DNA from: Lampropedia aestuarii
GTDB taxonomy: Bacteria; Pseudomonadota; Gammaproteobacteria; Burkholderiales; Burkholderiaceae_C
Direction: 5' to 3'
Length of the DNA stretch: 64,000 nt
NCBI RefSeq assembly: GCF_004803635.1
Contig: NZ_SSWX01000001.1
Coordinates: 62,001 to 126,000, forward strand
Every line of letters begins with the position of its first letter. The stretch's first letter is position 1. The notes beneath the pieces are model-generated. The model was given only the letters and a program-made list of their open reading frames with translations, had not been told where the DNA came from and ran no database searches. Below, one piece after another: positions 3,525-52,490 of the stretch. The translations under genes and the position numbers were made by a program.

Positions 3525-4115
3525 GTGAAATTCAGAATTCCACGCCATTCTCTTTTTGGTCTTTTGCTACGTTCACCGTGGTGGATTAGCATTATGCTGG
3601 CCATCGCTTTGTCTGCACTGCTCGCGGCCTTAATCCCGCGCGAATATGTGTTTTTTGCCATCGTCGGCACCTTACCGCTGTTTATTGTGGGTGTGGTGGC
3701 GCTGTGGCGGCAGCTGCAAACCCCTAGCCAAGAGCGTCGCGAAGCGATTTTGGCAGAAGCTGGGCACATGAACTGGGACAGTTTTGCCAAAAGAGCCAAT
3801 GAGTCCTGGCGCATCCTGGGCATCCATGCCAGCCAGCCTGAGCACGCGGGCGCAGACTGGCGCATTGCCCAGGATGGCAAGTACACACTGGTGTATGCGC
3901 GCCGCTGGAAAGCCTCGGTACATGGCCTGGAGCCCTTGCGCCAATTGGCCGAAGCCATGGAGTCCACTGGCATCAACCAGGGTCTGTACATCGCAGCAGG
4001 CGGCGAGCTCAGCCCGCCAGCACTGCGTTATGCGCGCGAGCACAATATTCAAATCTGGCTGGGCGATTCGCTGTCGCTGTTCTTGCTGGGTAAGGAGCCG
4101 CCATCGGCCTCCTAA
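3525..4115 (+). CDS. Membrane-anchored Mrr-like restriction-endonuclease-fold protein
   Basis: A 196-residue protein with two N-terminal membrane segments (about residues 19-38 and 41-60), then a cytoplasmic domain. That domain resembles the Mrr_cat nuclease fold: a conserved-looking Asp in GADWRIAQ, a following strand ending YARRWK where Mrr proteins carry QxK, then helix-strand repeats (GLYIAAGG, IQIWLG). Mrr-type domains cleave modified or foreign DNA, but small membrane-tethered versions have no settled role. The catalytic Q is replaced by R in RRWK, so activity is uncertain. No methylase or specificity gene is nearby. The stop TAA at 4113-4115 is also the first three bases of a dispersed repeat. 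A terminator follows at 4173-4194. Confidence 0.65.
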   Translation: MKFRIPRHSLFGLLLRSPWWISIMLAIALSALLAALIPREYVFFAIVGTLPLFIVGVVALWRQLQTPSQERREAILAEAGHMNWDSFAKRANESWRILGIHASQPEHAGADWRIAQDGKYTLVYARRWKASVHGLEPLRQLAEAMESTGINQGLYIAAGGELSPPALRYAREHNIQIWLGDSLSLFLLGKEPPSAS

Positions 4116-4152
4116 GAACCTGTTCATCATCTCAACAAAGAACAGGCTCTAA
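4113..4152. repeat. Minimal copy of the dispersed inverted-repeat family (two ends back to back)
   Basis: taagaacctgttc at the left and gaacaggctct at the right form an inverted repeat with only about 14 bases between. It looks like the two termini of the longer element (see 22937-23217) with the middle deleted. Its first three bases are the stop codon of the Mrr-like gene. Confidence 0.65.
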
Positions 4153-13383: not shown

Positions 13384-13935
13384 GCGCAAAACTCCTAAAA
13401 AACGCGCTTTAACTCGACAACAGGCGATTGCCCTGCTCCTGTATTGCACAAGGTCAAAACAATGCCACTGAAGCTTTCACCGGCGGAATTCTCGCGCTTC
13501 AGCTGTGTTGTCATTACAAGGAAACCCCTAATGCTTACGCATTTGTTCGTCTTTTTTATGCCTTTTGCAATGCAATCTGACTTGAAGCTGACTTATGTCT
13601 GACTAATTACTGACCAATCATCAGAATAGATTCATTGCCGTCGATGCACGCCCGGTTCAAATCAGCACCCAATGCGTGCTGGCGTACACGCGAGCCGAAG
13701 GATTGCGTATGCTGAGCATCCCTAATAGGGTTGGCACGACTGCCTGTAAGCGCTGGGGTTTTTTATGATCAGATGCGTCTAAGCGGTTCAAAATCTCCAC
13801 GCCATTCGCGCTGGGGCTCCAACAACACCTTGCGCCGCCAAGTGCGCAGTGCGGCATGGCCTGTTTACCCCCTCACACACATGGGCAGTAGCAGGCCGCC
13901 ATTACTGCCACCGTATAGGCGCCTTACAGGGCTGC
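13384..13935. other. Intergenic region upstream of tctB and the sensor gene
   Basis: About 550 bases with divergent promoters implied for tctB (minus) and the sensor protein (plus). No gene is supported. A degraded end of the dispersed repeat (taagcggttcaaaatctccacgcc) lies at 13780-13803. The stretch 13500-13630 is clearly richer in A and T than its surroundings and probably holds the tctB promoter. Confidence 0.5.
13780..13803 (+). repeat. Degenerate end of the dispersed inverted-repeat family
   Basis: gttcaaaatctccacgcc matches the terminal sequence seen at 40013 and 22937 almost exactly over 18 bases; the first few bases differ. The following sequence (tggggctccaac) faintly matches the next part of the 281-bp copy. 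No right end is recognisable. Confidence 0.5.
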
Positions 13936-16131
13936 ATGGCGATTGTGATCAGGGCCCCAGCAGTCCATAGGGAAACAGTGACACCACTTCACCTTGCCCC
14001 CAATCCACAACGCGGCCTCAAGCTGCCGCGCTGGGTATGGGCAATCGTGCTGGGCGTGGGCGCCCTGCTAATAGCATTGGCATACCTGCTGGGCACTGTG
14101 CTCAAGCAAAGCGTTCCTACACCGGCAGTCACTACATCGCTGAACGCAGAGCCGTCGCTGCTGCGCTATACCGCACAACTCACCAACCAGGCCCTGAGTG
14201 ACAAACAACGCCTGCTCGATGCCTATGCGTACACGCTGGGTTTTGTCGATAGCAACGACAGCCTTGCCAAGAAGCAATGGCTTAACAGCCACGGCGATCT
14301 GGTGAGTCGACTGTTTGAAGAAACCTGGCTGGTGTTTTTGCCCAGTGCCTCCTCCTCAAATGCTGCACCTGCCGATTTGGTCAGTTGGTTACTGCGTCCT
14401 GGCCAAGCAGCAGTGGCCACACCGCTCACCGGCCCAGTCGCTGGCAAGTTCAGCGAAATACTTGCGCACAAGCTCACCACCAGTATTGAAATCTCATACC
14501 TGGTCGAACAAGGCCAAACACGCGTAGTCCATGCCAGCCCGGCCTTGAACAAGCAAGGTGTGCCGATCGCTGTATTGGTTGCCCTGACGCCATTGAGTGG
14601 CTATTTATCGCTCGATGGCATTGGCTGTCTGAACACCCCAGATGGCCAGTACACGCTGCCCCTGCCATCGAACGCAGCGGTGCTCGGGCCATTTATCATC
14701 AATGCCCACAAACAATTGCTGGCCACCTCGGCCGGGCAAGACACCGAGCAGCTACAAGCACTGCTCAATCAAACTTCAATGCAGTGGCAAGCAGCAAACC
14801 CGCCTCGGTCTCAGATGGACTACGCACTGCAATGGCAGCGTATTCCAGGCACCACATGGCAGATGGGTTTAGCAATCGCCCAAGCAGAAACACAGACCTC
14901 AGAATTCTGGAGCGGGGGCCAAGCCTTGAGTCTGGCAACCGAAGATGAGGCGTTGAGCTGGGCGCTATTGGTTTTGAGCCTGGCTCTAGGGTTGGGACTG
15001 CTGGCTTGGCGCAGCTGCGTCTACCAGCGCAGCAGGACTGGGCCTACGCCAGACAGCTTCACATTGCAGCCGGGCGCCAGCGCCAATTCGGATCGATTGA
15101 AATCCAGCCACTCCCACAGACATGCAGGCCTGACGCCGGGCAATGCGGAGCAGGCGTTTGACTCCCAGGGGCCACCCCCGACAACACCACACGGCCAACT
15201 ACCACCAGGCAGCCTGCCCCTGAGCCTGAGCATGGACCAGCTCAAGCATTCCCGCCAATGCCTGGTCTTGCTGCAGCACAGCAAGATCCAAGCGATGAGC
15301 CAGGCAGCTTTGGAGTTTCTGCAAGCAGACAGAGCACAGCCCACGCCGCGTGCCATCCACAAATTGCTGGCACAACCAGCCGACTATGAGCGCCTGCGTT
15401 TCTTGATTGGCGCTGCTGGCCAAAATCTGCAACCGTTTAGCCTGACGACTGAAATCATCGATGGCCTGGGTTTTCGCCATGTGGTCTACGCCCAAATTTA
15501 TCCGCCCAGCGCCGATGCCCCGCACCAGCGCTTGGTGGTGTTTGAGGCCGAGCAGGCGCGGCTTGCACGCCTGTGCCCAGCAAATCTGCTGCCGCTGACA
15601 GAGCAGCTTCTCAACCCAATCTGTCACCTGCCCACCTTCGCGTATTGGCATGCGCTGCTAGCAGGCCAGTTGCGCCTGAGCGAGTTGCAATCCACCCCGC
15701 CAGGCTACGTGCTGTACTTGGCCATTGATGGCTTTGCCAGCTTAAGCAGTGCTGGCAGCCACGCATTCAGCGATGAGGCCTTGCGCTACACCGCCAATGC
15801 CCTGACCAACGCCTTGAGCCAATTGCCATTGCGCCATCTTCTGGGCCACATCCACAAAGAGCAATTTGCAGTGGCCTGCTTTGGGCTGGATGCGCAGCAC
15901 GCCCAGCAGCTGGCCAAGCATTTGCAGCGCACGATTGCCCATTTGCAGGCCAGCTACCAAGGCGTGCCCATGCTGCTGAGCATCAGCGTGGGCCTGGCCG
16001 CACTGCCGCGGCGGCTGCATGCACTCGATGCCCAATTGAACGCAGCCGATTTGGCCTGCTTTGATGCCGCATCCAAAGGCATTGCAGGGCTGGAGATCGC
16101 CAAACCGTGCAGCACCACCGCGCTGGCTTAG
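13936..16131 (+). CDS. Membrane sensor protein with a degenerate GGDEF domain
   Basis: A 731-residue protein: a membrane segment at about 30-55, a periplasmic sensor region of about 280 residues (55-338), a second membrane segment (339-361), a Pro/Ser/His-rich linker, a PAS-like region (about 430-560) and a C-terminal diguanylate-cyclase-like fold. In that fold LYLAIDGFASLSSAG (about 593) fits the usual LYIDLDGFK strand. The active-site GGDEF position reads GHIHKEQF (about 635), so metal and GTP binding are very unlikely. It probably signals by protein contact or is a receptor. The start is an ATG after a weak AGGG; the frame is open upstream from a GTG at 13849, and later GTG starts are possible. 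Its TAG stop is the first three bases of a dispersed repeat end. Confidence 0.75.
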   Translation: MAIVIRAPAVHRETVTPLHLAPNPQRGLKLPRWVWAIVLGVGALLIALAYLLGTVLKQSVPTPAVTTSLNAEPSLLRYTAQLTNQALSDKQRLLDAYAYTLGFVDSNDSLAKKQWLNSHGDLVSRLFEETWLVFLPSASSSNAAPADLVSWLLRPGQAAVATPLTGPVAGKFSEILAHKLTTSIEISYLVEQGQTRVVHASPALNKQGVPIAVLVALTPLSGYLSLDGIGCLNTPDGQYTLPLPSNAAVLGPFIINAHKQLLATSAGQDTEQLQALLNQTSMQWQAANPPRSQMDYALQWQRIPGTTWQMGLAIAQAETQTSEFWSGGQALSLATEDEALSWALLVLSLALGLGLLAWRSCVYQRSRTGPTPDSFTLQPGASANSDRLKSSHSHRHAGLTPGNAEQAFDSQGPPPTTPHGQLPPGSLPLSLSMDQLKHSRQCLVLLQHSKIQAMSQAALEFLQADRAQPTPRAIHKLLAQPADYERLRFLIGAAGQNLQPFSLTTEIIDGLGFRHVVYAQIYPPSADAPHQRLVVFEAEQARLARLCPANLLPLTEQLLNPICHLPTFAYWHALLAGQLRLSELQSTPPGYVLYLAIDGFASLSSAGSHAFSDEALRYTANALTNALSQLPLRHLLGHIHKEQFAVACFGLDAQHAQQLAKHLQRTIAHLQASYQGVPMLLSISVGLAALPRRLHALDAQLNAADLACFDAASKGIAGLEIAKPCSTTALA

Positions 16132-16168
16132 AGCCTATTCAAAGTCTCGACGCAGTCGCGCAAGGCAT
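16129..16168 (+). repeat. Left-end copy of the dispersed inverted-repeat family
   Basis: tagagcctattcaaagtctc followed by gacgcagtcgcgcaaggca matches the outer 40 bases of the copies at 22937-23217 (reverse strand) and 48258-48523. The TAG stop codon of the sensor gene is its first three bases. No right end is found before the regulator gene begins. Confidence 0.75.
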
Positions 16169-16185
16169 AACAGCCACGCTGGGCA

Positions 16186-22230: not shown

Positions 22231-22920
22231 ATGCCCTCCCTCTTCTCCAGACCACTGGCCTTGTTTGATCTGGACCACACTTTGCTCAATGGCGATGGCG
22301 ATGATTTGTGGTGCCGATTTCTGCTGCGCCACGGCCTGCTGCAGCGCGATGTGCAAGCGCGTAATGAGCAGCTGGGTGCCGACTACCGCGCCGGTCTTGT
22401 GTCAGCCCATGACTTCAGCGCGTTCTACGCCAGCCTGCTGGCCGGACGCTCGCCGGCACAATGGCGGCACTGGCTGCAGTTGTTTTTAGTTCAAGAGATT
22501 CGACCTCGTTTGCCCACCGCAGCCTACGCTTTGGTGGCCGCGCACCGCGCCGCAGGCCACACTGTGGTGTTGACCACCGCCAGCAACCGTGTGATTGCCG
22601 AGCCCAGCGCCGCAGAGCTGGGCTTTCACCACTGCATTGCCACAGAATTGGCGCTGGAAGGCGGAGTGTTTACTGGCCAGGTGCAAGGCACTCCTAATAT
22701 GCGTGAAGGCAAATGCCTGCGCATGCACGCCTGGCTGATTGAGCAGGGCCTGCCACCCCAGACACTGGCAAGTGCCTATTTTTACAGCGACTCAATCAAC
22801 GATCTGCCCCTGCTGAGCCAAGTTGGCGAGCCGATTGCCGTCAATCCCGACCCACAATTGCACCAGCATGCACGCGCCAATGGCTGGCACGTGTTGGATG
22901 TGCTTGGCATTGGTCTTTAG
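22231..22920 (+). CDS. HAD-IB family phosphatase (SerB-like)
   Basis: A haloacid-dehalogenase-superfamily phosphatase, 229 residues: motif I LFDLDHTLL with both catalytic Asp residues (about 11-19), a helical cap, motif II TTASN, a Lys in the EGKCLRM region (motif III), and motif IV YSDSINDLPLL. It resembles the phosphoserine-phosphatase-like HAD-IB group common in Burkholderiales. It starts about 50 bases after the phosphodiesterase and probably shares its transcript, so the pair could strip phosphate from diester products. The frame extends upstream to 22156 but would overlap the preceding gene; the ATG at 22231 fits the family N-terminus. Confidence 0.85.
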   Translation: MPSLFSRPLALFDLDHTLLNGDGDDLWCRFLLRHGLLQRDVQARNEQLGADYRAGLVSAHDFSAFYASLLAGRSPAQWRHWLQLFLVQEIRPRLPTAAYALVAAHRAAGHTVVLTTASNRVIAEPSAAELGFHHCIATELALEGGVFTGQVQGTPNMREGKCLRMHAWLIEQGLPPQTLASAYFYSDSINDLPLLSQVGEPIAVNPDPQLHQHARANGWHVLDVLGIGL

Positions 22921-22936
22921 AAGGTGTTTACGTTCT

Positions 22937-23217
22937 TAGAGCCTGTTCAAAGTCTCCACGCCGACCGCGTTGGAGCCCAAAAGGATACGATGCGCGGCAA
23001 AAACCGCAGTCGGGCTATCTGACCGGCGAAGATTTTCAACAAAGCAGCGTGCCTTTTGGACTCCAACCCCCAATACCAAAAAGAGCTGCAAGGCACAAAA
23101 AAGCGCATGGCTGCGTTGCCAATTTTGCTCATACAGACGTATGCGCTGCAACAGGCGTCTTGTACTGCCTCTTTTTGTGCCTTGCGCGACGGCGTCGAGA
23201 CTTTGAACAGGCTCTTA
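22937..23217. mobile_element. MITE-like non-coding element with 20-bp terminal inverted repeats (best copy)
   Basis: The 281-bp element begins tagagcctgttcaaagtctc and ends with the reverse complement of taagagcctgttcaaagtct, so the outer 20 or so bases pair apart from one position, and pairing extends inwards through acgccg. Inside, a second nested inverted repeat (gcaaggcacaaaaagaggc and gcttttttgtgccttgc on the reverse strand) makes a hairpin of about 100 bases. No coding frame is supported. The right-hand stop TAA (23215-23217) belongs to the neighbouring minus-strand gene. Related copies are at 4113, 13780, 16129, 40013, 42090, 48258, 51510 and 52473. Confidence 0.75.
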
Positions 23218-24120
23218 GTTGAATTCGCGCTCACGCAACCATTTGGTTGCCACCCATTTCTCGCCTTCGACCACCGGCGCGCCACCGTGCAATGACAAGG
23301 TATTGGGGTGTGGTTTGTCATAGCTGAAAAACACGGCCGTTCCTTGCTGGGCGGCCACCTCTAAGCCGGCGTTGGGGAAAGTCGTGCCGCCGCCTGCAAC
23401 TGGCGTATTCAGGTAGAGCAGCAAGGTGCCCACGCGCTGGCCACCTCGGCGTAGCAAAGCCGGGGCACTGGGCGCGTCGGGCTCAAAGTAATCGTAATGT
23501 GGTTTGTATTCCGCCTTGGGGCCGTAGTGCAAGACCTGCAAGCCCTCGCCATTGGCAACAGGCCAGCCGAGCAAATCGGCAATGCGCTGCTCCAGGGCGG
23601 CAATCACAGCGGACTCGCCACGTTCAAAAAACATGCCTTCGCTGGTGCGGTCTTCATTGAGCTCATCACCGCCGTCGGCACTTTGGCTATTGACCGTCAA
23701 TGAGCGACGCATGCGTGGCCTGGCCAGTGCAATGATCTGCTCACATTCGTCAGCCGTCAGCAAGCCCTCCAGCACCACCACTCGGGGCAGCTTCATGCTC
23801 ATGACCACTTTCACATCACGATCGCCTGCGCGCACCCAGGCTGGCGAGCCCTCTAACGCCAAATCAGGCACAGGCACTGCAGCGGGCGCAGCTTCGCTGG
23901 CTGCTGCAGTGTGCAGCTGACCAGGCATGGCATTGCGCTCTTGCAAATGCTCTGAGAGCACGGACTCCAAAGCGGCCAGTGCGACGTCTTCGGACCAGCC
24001 CACATCCAGCATGGCTTGCAAGGCCTTGGGGGCTGAAACGCCAGCTTCGGCTTGGTCAATGATCCACTGGCGCAGCTCCGGCGTTACTGAAGCCAAATGG
24101 GGGTTGACGGTCAATGCCAT
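23215..24120 (-). CDS. 2-oxoglutarate/Fe(II) oxygenase, prolyl 4-hydroxylase-like
   Basis: A 301-residue protein whose C-terminal 200 residues are a prolyl-4-hydroxylase alpha-type double-stranded beta-helix: iron ligands HYD in YKPHYDYF, the distal His in SLHGGAP, and the 2-oxoglutarate-binding Lys in KWVATKW. The conserved entry RSEGMFFERGE-like stretch here reads RTSEGMFFERGE. The N-terminal 60 residues are helical (a UBA-like LQAMLDVGWSEDVALAAL). The family hydroxylates prolines in proteins; the bacterial substrates are mostly unknown. The ATG has GGAG nine bases upstream. Its TAA stop is shared with the end of the MITE-like element. Confidence 0.88.
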   Translation of the reverse strand: MALTVNPHLASVTPELRQWIIDQAEAGVSAPKALQAMLDVGWSEDVALAALESVLSEHLQERNAMPGQLHTAAASEAAPAAVPVPDLALEGSPAWVRAGDRDVKVVMSMKLPRVVVLEGLLTADECEQIIALARPRMRRSLTVNSQSADGGDELNEDRTSEGMFFERGESAVIAALEQRIADLLGWPVANGEGLQVLHYGPKAEYKPHYDYFEPDAPSAPALLRRGGQRVGTLLLYLNTPVAGGGTTFPNAGLEVAAQQGTAVFFSYDKPHPNTLSLHGGAPVVEGEKWVATKWLREREFN

Positions 24121-39613: not shown

Positions 39614-40015
39614 ATGCAGCAGATTGAACAGCCCAACCCTCAGGCCAGCCCGTTTGAATGGATTGGTGGCGAGCAACAAGTGCGCGCACTGGTCGACCGT
39701 TTTTACGACCTGATGGACTTGGAGCCCGCCTACCAAGCCTTGCGTGCGGTTCATGGTGATTCTTTGGATGAGGCGCGCAATAAACTGTTTTGGTTTTTGT
39801 GCGGTTGGCTTGGCGGCCCTGATTATTTCATCGAGCGTTTTGGCCATCCACGCCTGCGCATGCGCCACATGCCATTCGCCATAGGGATTCGTGAGCGCGA
39901 TGAATGGGTCGCCTGCATGGACCAGGCGATGCAGGAGCTGGAGGTGCCTGAGGCTTTGCGCACAAGACTCAGCCACAGCTTCATGCAAACGGCCGACTGG
40001 ATGCGTAACCGCTAA
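39614..40015 (+). CDS. Group II truncated haemoglobin
   Basis: A 133-residue 2-on-2 globin of group II (TrHbO type). The N-terminal FEWIGGEQQVRALVDRFYDLMD carries Tyr B10 (Tyr31). The proximal haem ligand is His85 in LRMRHMPF, and the group II hallmark Trp G8 is Trp98 in RDEWVACM. Members bind oxygen, peroxide or nitric oxide. I start at the ATG at 39614; an in-frame TTG two codons earlier is possible, and neither has a good ribosome site. Its TAA stop is the first three bases of a dispersed repeat end. Confidence 0.9.
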   Translation: MQQIEQPNPQASPFEWIGGEQQVRALVDRFYDLMDLEPAYQALRAVHGDSLDEARNKLFWFLCGWLGGPDYFIERFGHPRLRMRHMPFAIGIRERDEWVACMDQAMQELEVPEALRTRLSHSFMQTADWMRNR

Positions 40016-40165
40016 GAGCCTGTTCAAAATCTCCACGCAGACCACACAACAGCGAGAGTTGCAGCGCAAGCCTGCACCATCGCTGCTGCATCTGAGCAGC
40101 TGCTATTGCGTGAGCCGCAAAGCCGACCAGTCGTGCGGCCAAATGGTTTGAAAACAGCGTGGCAG
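40013..40165. repeat. Copy of the dispersed inverted-repeat family with a weak right end
   Basis: The left end taagagcctgttcaaaatct, then ccacgcag, is nearly identical to other copies. A decayed right end may be the tttgaaaacagcgt at about 40149-40162. The interior keeps little similarity. The TAA is the stop codon of the globin gene. Confidence 0.55.
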
Positions 40166-40301: not shown

Positions 40302-42092
40302 ATGTGGTTTGCCAATATCTCCATCCGCTCCAAGCTGTTGTGGGCCTTTTTCATACTGGTGGCTCTAGCCGGCGTTTTGGGCTTTGTGTCCTTGCGCCAG
40401 CTGATGCATGTGCACCTGACCAGTGAAGAGGTCAATCTGCGCTGGCTACCGGCGATTTCCGAGTCTGGCCAGCTCTCCACTGCACTGAACCGCGTGCGCC
40501 GCATTGAAAGCCGCCTCTCCACGGTGCGCAACATGGCAGAGCTGCAGCAATTCCAGTCCATCATCGACCAGCGTTTGGAGCAGCTCAAAGAGCATGAAGC
40601 GCGCTTTGAAAAAAGCGCCAGCGATGCCCAGTCCAGCGCACTGCTGCTTGACTACAACCGATCACTGTCGGCTTACAACACGGCCCGGGTCGAATTGTTA
40701 GGCTTGGCGCAACAAGCACTGGAGTATTTAGTAGAGCACCAAGTCCGCAACCAGGAATTGTTCCAAGGCATCAGGGACTACTACTCTGGCCCGTTGGAGC
40801 AAAGCTTCGCAGAAGTCGAGAACCAGATCAGCCGACTGCAAAAGTGGAGCAATGACAAGGCCGATGAGGCCAATCTGGTGGTTGCCAGCACCTACCGCGC
40901 AGCGATTGTGCAAATCTCCATCGTCTTGATCTTGACCATTGCAGCAGCACTGGTGTTGACGATTCTGATCACGCGTTTGATCACCGAGCCGGTGCGCCGT
41001 GCAGTCAACGCAATGCAAGCGGTCTCACAAGGCAACTTGACCGCCCCGATCAGCATCACCGGCAAAGACGAAATGGGCCAGATGCTGATGGCACTTGAAT
41101 CAATGCGCCAAAAACTCCAGTCTGTGGTGTCTGGCGTGCGCAGCAATGCCGAAGGCGTGGCAGCGGCCAGCAGCCAGATCGCCCAAGGCAATAACGACCT
41201 GTCCATTCGCACCGAGCAACAAGCCAGTTCGCTCGAAGAGATTGCTGCGTCGATGGAGGAGCTAGGCTCGACCGTGCATCAAAATGCCGACCATGCGCAC
41301 ATGGCCAACCAAGTGGTGATCAATACGACCAAAACCGCCATCGATGGTGGCGAAGTCATGCAGCAAGCGGTGCAGACCATGCAGACCATCCTCGACGGTG
41401 GGCGCGAGATCGAAGAGATCATTGCAGTCATCGACAATATCGCCTTCCAAACCAATATTCTGGCGCTCAATGCCGCCGTTGAAGCCGCGCGCGCCGGTGA
41501 ACAAGGCCGCGGCTTTGCCGTCGTCGCCAATGAAGTGCGTAGCCTGGCACAACGCAGCGCTGAATCCTCCAAAGAAGTCAAAGCCCTGGTCGCAGGCAAT
41601 GCGGCACGCGTTAACCGAGGCGCCGATTTGATGGGGCAAGCAGGCAAGGCCATGGAAGAAATCGTCCAAAGCATTCGCCATGTCACCGACCTGGTCGGAG
41701 AGATCAGTGCCGCCAGCACCGAGCAAAGCGCCGGCGTCTCCCAGGTTGGTGAGGCGATTGTGCAAATGGACCAAGTCACCCAGCGCAATGCGGCCTTGGT
41801 CGAAGAAAGCGCTGCAGCAGCAGTCAGCCTCAGCCACCAGGCGCAGGAGCTGCTCAGCTCGGTTGAAGTCTTCAAACTGGCACACACAGAGACCGCCGCC
41901 ATGCATCAGCGCAAGCCCATGGCCGAGCACCTTGCCGGAGGTTCCAAAGAGCCTGGCCGCAGTGGCTTGCAGCACACGTCCTACGCGCATACTGCCACAG
42001 CCCATCCGGCGCCCCCCGCCCCAAAGGCCGCCAATCACCAATCAAGCACCCCGCGCAACACCAAAGACGATGCGAATTGGGAAAGTTTTTAA
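40302..42092 (+). CDS. Methyl-accepting chemotaxis protein (4HB sensor, Tsr-like)
   Basis: A 596-residue chemoreceptor: membrane segment 1 at about 11-31, a four-helix-bundle periplasmic ligand domain (35-190), membrane segment 2 (192-215), HAMP domain ([20 protein letters not shown]), then the long signalling coiled coil. The tip is [20 protein letters not shown], then [18 protein letters not shown]. The protein ends DDANWESF, a version of the NWETF pentapeptide that tethers the CheR methyltransferase and CheB methylesterase, so it should be a high-abundance, self-adapting receptor. The ATG at 40302 fits the family start ([12 protein letters not shown]). No other chemotaxis genes are nearby. 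A repeat copy follows at its stop codon. Confidence 0.93.
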
Positions 42093-42267
42093 AAACCTGT
42101 TCATCACCTCCACGCAGCCGCGCAAAGCCCCCAATGAGGCTGTGCGAGGCGTCTGATGCGGCTCGGACATGCTGTATGAGCACAACGGGCAACGCTGCAA
42201 TGCGCTTTTGCGTGCCTTGCCTTGTGGACTTCAACGCGGCTGCGTCGAGATTTTGAACAGGCTTTAA
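42090..42267. mobile_element. MITE-like element, internally deleted 178-bp copy
   Basis: Left end taaaaacctgttcatcacct, then ccacgcagccgcg; right end cgcggctgcgtcgagatttt, then gaacaggcttt, so the termini pair as inverted repeats. The interior matches the 281-bp and 266-bp copies through atgagcac, gcaacgctgcaatgcgctt and gtgccttgcc, then jumps to the right terminus. This is what an internal deletion of the longer form would give. The TAA stop codon of the chemoreceptor gene is its first three bases. Confidence 0.7.
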
Positions 42268-42325
42268 TAAGAACGTGTTGATTAATTAAAGAGTCTGACC
42301 GAGGTCAAAGCAGCACGCCAATAAA

Positions 42326-48185: not shown

Positions 48186-48864
48186 AAATTGTCCTCAACC
48201 ATCACCGTTTGCGTTAATCCGTCATTGCACCCTATGCAATTCAAGGCAATCACGCCTTAGAGCCTGTTCAAAGTCTCGGTGCAGTCGCGCAAGGCACAAA
48301 AAAGAGGCAGTGTAAAGCGCCTTTTGCAGCTCAGACATGAGTATGGGCACTACTGGCACGCCGCAATGCGCTTTGGTGTGCCTTGCCCTTAGGACTGGCG
48401 ACTAAAAGGCCACTGTTTTGTTAAAAATCATCATCAGCCAAGTAGCCTGACTGGTTATTTACCGCGCATTGCAGCCTTTTGTACTTCAACGCGACTGCGT
48501 GGTGATCATGTGCAGACTCTAAGCTGCCGACCGGAGCCTTCTGGCCTTAAACCAGCAAAACCATGGGTTTAGAGATTGATTCTGGCAGACCATCGCATCG
48601 ATTGATGGGAAAATACAAGAAAAGTGATCAAACAATCAAACAATGTGATACAAATAATACCAATTGAAATCTAGCAACAATTTGGGCATAGGTTCATTCA
48701 GAGAGTCGGTTGCGTTGTGCTGTGTGCATTCAGCAGTGGCTGCATGGATTTGGCGTTTCTGAACCACGCAATGTCTGTTGTATGGCAATACGCGCACAGC
48801 GCTAATTATTTGATATAGCTACCACTAGCATAGGAACGCTTCGCCAGAGATCAAAAGGTAAATA
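48186..48864. other. Intergenic region between divergent envZ and the GGDEF-EAL gene
   Basis: 679 bases. It contains the 266-bp MITE-like copy (48258-48523). The rest (48524-48864) is AT-rich, with a short repetition (gtgatcaaacaatcaaacaatgtgat near 48625-48650), and no supported gene; it probably carries the promoter of the GGDEF-EAL gene. Confidence 0.5.
48258..48523. mobile_element. MITE-like element, 266-bp copy with a decayed right end
   Basis: Starts tagagcctgttcaaagtctc and continues gcagtcgcgcaaggcacaaa, aaagaggcagt, then gtgtgccttgcc, and later tagcctgactggttatttac and cttcaacgcgactgcgt. The order and spacing of these blocks match the 281-bp copy at 22937-23217 read on its reverse strand. 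The right end reads gatcatgtgcagactctaag, where the other copy has gactttgaacaggctctaag, so it has drifted. No coding capacity. Confidence 0.7.
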
Positions 48865-51509: not shown

Positions 51510-51523
51510 TTTGAACAGGTTTA
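51510..51523 (-). repeat. Solo end of the dispersed inverted-repeat family
   Basis: tttgaacaggttta matches the outer terminus of the element in reverse orientation, with one change (ggct to ggtt). No partner end was recognised, though gcgcgacgacgc some 75 bases upstream is reminiscent of the next inner part. Confidence 0.4.
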
Positions 51524-52396: not shown

Positions 52397-52472
52397 GTCA
52401 ACAGTCTTTATAAACAAAAGAAAATACAGATCAGCATGCCTGACTGGCCATGCCTCACACCAAAACGCCCCT

Positions 52473-52490
52473 TAGAGCCTGTTCATCATT
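52473..52490 (-). repeat. Solo end of the dispersed inverted-repeat family downstream of nuoN
   Basis: tagagcctgttcatcatt matches the outer terminus of the element (compare 4113 and 42090, which also have gttcatca in place of gttcaaag). No second end is visible before the nuo terminator at 52623. Confidence 0.5.

Follow-up and report, generated by a model that had tools for sequence, protein, structure and literature searches.

The interior of a MITE is commonly regarded as leftover filler sequence. Correia elements, or NEMIS, of Neisseria use a TA target and TIRs other than those of the element described here, and REP sequences are not known to make target duplications. Correia/NEMIS resemble our element in being short (~105–155 bp), non-coding or with short frames, mostly intergenic in the 155-bp form, and able to form RNA stem-loops (PMC2229807, in part). 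The Caulobacter CIR, like our element, consists of two inverted-repeat arms and a linker and is conserved between species; however, it carries a GANTC motif, is ~110 bp long and appears in the relevant part of PMC2229807 without the outer-end pairing described for other repeats. The pneumococcal RUP is, like our element, a MITE whose mobilization in trans was deduced from the TIRs that it has in common with an IS, but it is of the IS630 type, has a TA target and is described for one species in that part of PMC2229807. REP or GTAG palindromes with RAYT are also numerous, small and mostly downstream of genes, yet they span only 20–40 bp, bear a GTAG or CGTC tag and often neighbor RAYT genes (PMC3733652, in part). 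In the rice MITE mPing, internal sequences are reported to affect mobility (PMC9921582, in part). The IS5 family (DUF4096 and DDE in two overlapping frames, TNA targets) shares TIR sequence, TNA duplication, genome and genus with our element, which differs in that it does not code for protein, is one third as long and carries a folded module absent from the IS copies at the 10 loci searched.

The element occupies 276 non-coding base pairs (22939–23214) of the window, by which we mean the whole 64,000-nt stretch of Lampropedia aestuarii DNA analyzed. A first-pass annotation had described a 281-bp inverted-repeat element here; the element is real, but its bounds are corrected to 22939–23214 with TTA on either side (Table 1). 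The termini, put at ~25 bp in that annotation, are indeed 25-bp TIRs, and the outer arms including the flanks (22935–22963 and 23190–23218) are 93% complementary over 29 nt. An inner hairpin of ~100 nt is likewise present, but as two arms rather than one; the inner repeat pairs 23088–23101 with 23172–23185. The element folds more stably than its shuffled counterparts both as RNA (−134.2 kcal/mol, whereas 200 shuffles gave −84.2 with sd 4.6; z −10.8) and as DNA (z −9.3). On one side of it a HAD-type (histidinol-phosphatase-like) gene ends at 22920; on the other side is a convergent ORF that matches no NCBIfam entry and whose stop codon coincides with the right duplication.

Table 1. Features of the element and its relatives in the window.
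Feature	Position	Strand	Remarks
Left target-site duplication, TTA	22936..22938	.	
Left TIR, GAGCCTGTTCAAAGTCTCCACGCCG	22939..22963	+	24/25 positions pair with right arm
Inner hairpin arm 1	22969..23067	+	consensus fold of 17 elements
Conserved structured module (model R1)	22991..23047	+	71.1 bits, E 9e-19 in window
Inner hairpin arm 2	23088..23185	+	inverted repeat and consensus fold
Right TIR	23190..23214	-	
Right duplication, TTA	23215..23217	.	stop codon of 301-aa ORF 23215-24120 (- strand)
Remnant of ~40 bp, TIR to TIR, TAA flanks	4113..4152	+	
Degenerate left-end fragment	13786..13850	+	
Short remnant, one TIR end	16129..16170	-	
Solo end	40013..40043	+	
Internally shortened copy, both ends	42088..42268	-	weak module-like match 42143-42200 (E 0.15)
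Second full-length copy, decayed	48257..48523	-	73% identical; module 48413-48468 on - strand, 32.8 bits
Solo end (weak)	52472..52490	+	

Eight relatives had been proposed in the window. We recovered three two-ended copies (4113, 42088 and 48257) and four single ends or fragments, but not the relative at 51510, which was absent from both the TIR scan (≤4 mismatches) and the end-motif scan of the window. Both ends are thus present in only four window copies, the element itself included. The copy at 48257, for which a shared block order over the whole length had been stated, is full length but decayed. In the 4.17-Mb genome (75 contigs), the TIR matches 62 + 59 = 121 times (≤2 mismatches) and the core hairpin 41 + 39 = 80 times (≤3 mismatches), versus 0 for each reversed-pattern control. 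The anticipated hundreds of copies are about right if single ends are counted, but not otherwise. Among 48 fetched loci, 41 gave a core alignment of >180 bp and were retained as the aligned copies. Their divergence from the core consensus is low (median 3.8%, maximum 21.9%), and much of the spread is therefore recent. The exact TIR occurs in 3/200 genomes of the family, and these three belong to the element's own genus.

We looked for target-site duplications and found identical 3-bp TNA flanks in 25/41 aligned copies; the other 16 lack identical 3-bp flanks. TNA is present on both sides in 31 copies and identical in 25 of these, a count equaled in 0/10,000 permutations. When the flanks of seven copies were joined and used as a query, each of the ten same-genus genomes gave a match somewhere. 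At the three of the seven queried sites that could be resolved, relatives lack the element; the intergenic DNA is too diverged to define an exact junction. Four relatives (G005, G007, G001 and G009) have both neighboring genes without the element at one of these sites; at the two others, one relative (G005) has the same gene pair and no element. Another TIR end directly abuts the duplication at 8/82 flanks, versus 3/4510 control positions. Such abutment, far commoner than chance, is to be expected, because an element that begins with G and ends with C remakes CTNAG at both junctions when it inserts into CTNAG.

Every TNA target forms a stop codon on one strand, and insertion at a gene's stop can therefore leave that gene intact. 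Active targeting of stop codons was considered and rejected: 9/41 copies lie on the stop of a neighboring ORF (≥100 codons only), but this amounts to 9/82 sides, a rate not clearly higher than the 36/532 of nearby TNA sites. There is no significant strand bias relative to the flanking genes (13 vs 7, p 0.26; 7 vs 5, p 0.77). Placements between convergent genes exceed those between divergent genes (29 vs 10, against 8 vs 14 for random positions; p 0.006). Gene orientations in these counts come from a crude ORF caller, with 41/90 and 18/42 copies dropped owing to a called, maybe spurious, ORF through them and 2 more dropped for genes too far away.

A transposase with the same terminal repeats, which the first-pass annotation had suggested seeking, is found in the genome in decayed form. 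An 841-bp IS5-family element (G000:C74:131206-132046) has both TIRs, each matching the MITE at 16/18 bases; its DUF4096 and DDE domains lie in separate pieces, and this copy is frame-disrupted and looks broken. This IS sits in or beside another decayed IS5-like transposase gene (G000:C74:130661-132046; pieces at L051 979-1499). Four same-genus genomes (G001, G002, G006 and G008) hold related IS, ~842–848 bp long, whose TIRs read, for example, GAACCTGTTCAAA[GA]TCTT, and GA[AG]CCTGTTCAAA[GA]TCTT or GA[AG]CCTGTTCACGATCT. In these relatives, TNA is identical at 5/7 complete IS copies with both flanks readable, and DUF4096 and DDE_Tnp_1 score over the cut-off in both frame pairs tested (n = 2). Two IS copies directly abut a module-bearing element (L056/L092 in G002 and L072 in G006). 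Inside the IS copies themselves, no module was detected at E ≤ 1 in 10 loci, and IS5-type transposition thus does not need the module. As a separate observation in the element's own genome, one MITE copy (G000:C2:40570-41200) lies ~230 bp from a cognate transposase gene fragment (72% identical), with another TIR-like end between the two.

Another TIR class, mostly GAACGTGTTTACGATCTTTT or GAACCTGTTTACGATCTTTT, is carried by 11/41 copies. The cores of these 11 copies are 2.4–6.2% off the same consensus; the median over the full set of 41 is 3.8%. The arms agree at an average of 22.4/25 positions within a copy but at 14.5 across TIR classes, both arms having changed together. In these copies the exchange of TIRs appears to be recent.

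The core reaches well beyond the genus. We found relatives of it, ~71–89% identical and with the same architecture, in three same-genus genomes (G005, G002 and G004). Model R1, built from 14 modules, detects the 57-nt module in at least 49/250 order genomes (34/121 genera) and at least 30/274 class genomes (27/222 genera), own genome included in each; these counts are lower bounds, because filters were strict and scoring was limited to 22 or 20 places in each genome. The core, present in 49/250 order genomes, is thus far more widespread than the exact ends, which occur in 3/200 family genomes, a difference that the first-pass annotation had missed. An exact inner-module pattern had hits in at least 120 GTDB genome stretches; among the matches listed, most are Burkholderiales and one is a Desulfovibrionaceae MAG. 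These stretches contain 122 pattern matches, of which the 101 with full flanks were used. The module lies inside a TIR pair in 86/101, versus 4/101 shifted controls (64 vs 0 at a stricter score). The 86 TIR-bounded elements fall mainly into two sizes, with 54 at 160–169 bp and 12 at 260–269 bp. Loci selected with the model (39 fetched, 36 analyzed, 2 of these too short) gave TIRs in 30/34, versus 2/68 controls; here sizes are less uniform (n = 30), with 5 at 158–170 bp, 12 at 256–267 bp and 13 others. The TIR types of module elements include GARCSTGTT (TNA), and GGCRACGCTGAATAAGTC and GGATCCTCTGCACGAATC (often CTAG, CTAA, TTAA or CCAG), and length is exactly 161 bp in 30/55 short elements of three main TIR types, as loosely sorted. 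For the YTAR-flanked types, no cognate transposase with the same TIR was present in the fetched loci; TNA and YTAR targets are presumably those of IS5 subgroups, and the link of the YTAR types to IS5 rests on such target-site rules. These comparisons show that the interior module persists while the TIRs, both arms together, change between subfamilies and taxa.

Carriage of the element by plasmids and phages looks rare. A 273-bp element had no match in either a phage or a plasmid collection, a second element had 0 matches, a Comamonas element matched 6 plasmid records, none with 80% query coverage, and the exact core pattern hit 1 viral contig. Two plasmids do carry elements: the IncP plasmid pRK1-5 of Cupriavidus basilensis has a one-module element with CTAA/CTAG flanks, and a Comamonas odontotermitis plasmid has a longer TNA-type element. 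No plasmid site without the element could be shown.

Alignments of the core indicate that its fold is maintained. Double compensated changes occur in 40/94 consensus pairs of a 17-element alignment, where 94.7% of cells pair versus 83.6% when shuffled and ≤43.7% when slid; further pair types, however, are no more numerous than in shuffles (80 vs 79.6; 251/500). In 76 modules from 65 chosen loci, aligned by fitting to the model and so favoring the structure, double changes are seen in 16/17 pairs, and the share of cells that pair is 96.9%, versus 75.7% shuffled and ≤43.5% slid. The best-conserved segments of the 76 modules, CAAGGCG, CGCAG, CRAGG and GCAACGCC, are partly paired and partly unpaired, and the unpaired AA of GCAAC and A of CRAGG are ≥95% conserved. 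In 58 short elements (155–170 bp), GGGATGG and ACCGCCC, which flank the module outside the search pattern, are 96% and 93% conserved, while TIRs of the same elements average only 65% and 72%. Most of the long elements tested contain a second, inverted module: in a set of 12 elements (~268 bp), taken from this genome and its same-genus relatives, arm 2 matches R1 on the opposite strand in 11 at E ≤ 0.0024 and in the twelfth at E 2.9, with a module spacing of ~105 nt. The window copy gave no second match at E ≤ 1. Opposite module pairs, 104–121 nt apart, recur at seven order- or class-level loci. Accordingly, a single module within TIRs appears to make up the short form, and an inverted pair of modules within TIRs the long one.

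By every feature testable here, the window element is very probably a MITE: it is short and non-coding with TIRs and TNA duplications, is present in dispersed copies, is missing between orthologous gene pairs in relatives and shares its ends with an IS. Read from sequence, the anatomy is clearly that of a non-autonomous IS5-type MITE, and the proposal in the first-pass annotation of a MITE family that would be mobilized in trans fits the TIRs, the TNA duplications, the empty gene pairs and the TIR match to the IS5 family. The reading we favor, to which we assign a probability of roughly 0.6, is that of an IS5-type MITE that would be moved in trans, with the module kept as a DNA-level aid to mobilization. 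The common TIRs and targets suggest that a resident IS5-family transposase would move the element; the IS of its own genome, however, looks broken. The module may be kept as a DNA hairpin or cruciform that would improve mobilization of so short an element, and a host or transposase protein possibly binds its conserved internal loop. Taken by itself, the assignment of the module as a cis-acting fold at the DNA level that would help IS5-type mobilization stands just below an even bet. It is suggested by the IS5-like target duplications and the recurring element length, and it fits the absence of significant strand bias, small as those numbers are. Against it, the conserved loops and compensated stems would also suit an RNA, and a strict need for the module is disfavored by the IS copies, which move without it.

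The module could instead work as RNA, and the first-pass annotation had likewise thought of RNA structures: transcribed with its neighbors, it would stabilize, terminate or process mRNA, or act as a small RNA, and insertions carrying it would be better tolerated. In favor of such a role are the compensated stems, whose internal loops have conserved bases, and the surplus of placements between convergent genes, and RNA-level effects of ERIC and NEMIS have been described (PMC2229807, in part). Yet 3′ placement is expected anyway of harmless insertions, there is no significant strand bias relative to genes, and no Rfam family corresponds to the module; we consider an RNA role unlikely. A known ncRNA was rejected, as the gathering-score Rfam scan of the window gave 0 matches, and permissive scans gave one match in four loci (E 4.5) and two in the element (E 0.49 and 3.9), all far below family cut-offs.

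Less likely still is an absence of any selection on the module, with a spreading, transferred MITE lineage in which hairpin-templated repair from arm to arm mimics compensation. TIR and stem arms do change together, related sequences can covary without structure, as the counting tool warns, and the further pair types of the 17-element alignment equal those of shuffles. Neutral spread with arm correction accounts for the paired changes but not for the fixed loops, that is, the unpaired A residues of GCAAC and CRAGG; nor do the strong conservation of GGGATGG and ACCGCCC beside variable TIRs and the recurrence of exactly 161 bp across three main TIR types favor it.

Y1 elements are not known to make TIRs or target duplications. 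That the element is REP-like, an alternative offered in the first-pass annotation, and mobilized by a Y1 (RAYT) transposase is very improbable and was rejected: although Y1_Tnp genes are commoner in genomes with the module (41/49 vs 114/201 of 250 order genomes, p 0.0005, phylogeny ignored), 97,787 bases around 20 Y1 genes in 17 module-bearing genomes contain 0 modules at E ≤ 0.05, and our elements have both TIRs and target duplications.

With the favored reading of a trans-mobilized IS5-type MITE, what appears to be new is the conserved folded core that recurs with different ends, which is unusual for such elements; searches of the open-license PMC literature brought up neither module nor ends. 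More tentatively, and with the balance of our judgment somewhat against it, an old module found in Burkholderiales and in other orders within that GTDB class may be a parasite of the IS5 superfamily whose ends are swapped to fit the resident transposase. Such a parasite would keep its core for very long and would exist in a one-module (~161 bp) and an inverted two-module (~266 bp) form. If this holds, bacteria would have, in logic, their own counterpart to SINEs, with a conserved structured core and exchangeable mobilization signals. A conserved interior with exchangeable ends across an order and beyond makes it testable whether the inside of a MITE acts in transposition or in host RNA. The series of elements offers natural material for the study of TIR switching, and R1 can serve as a model in searches for many intergenic repeats of Proteobacteria that lack annotation.
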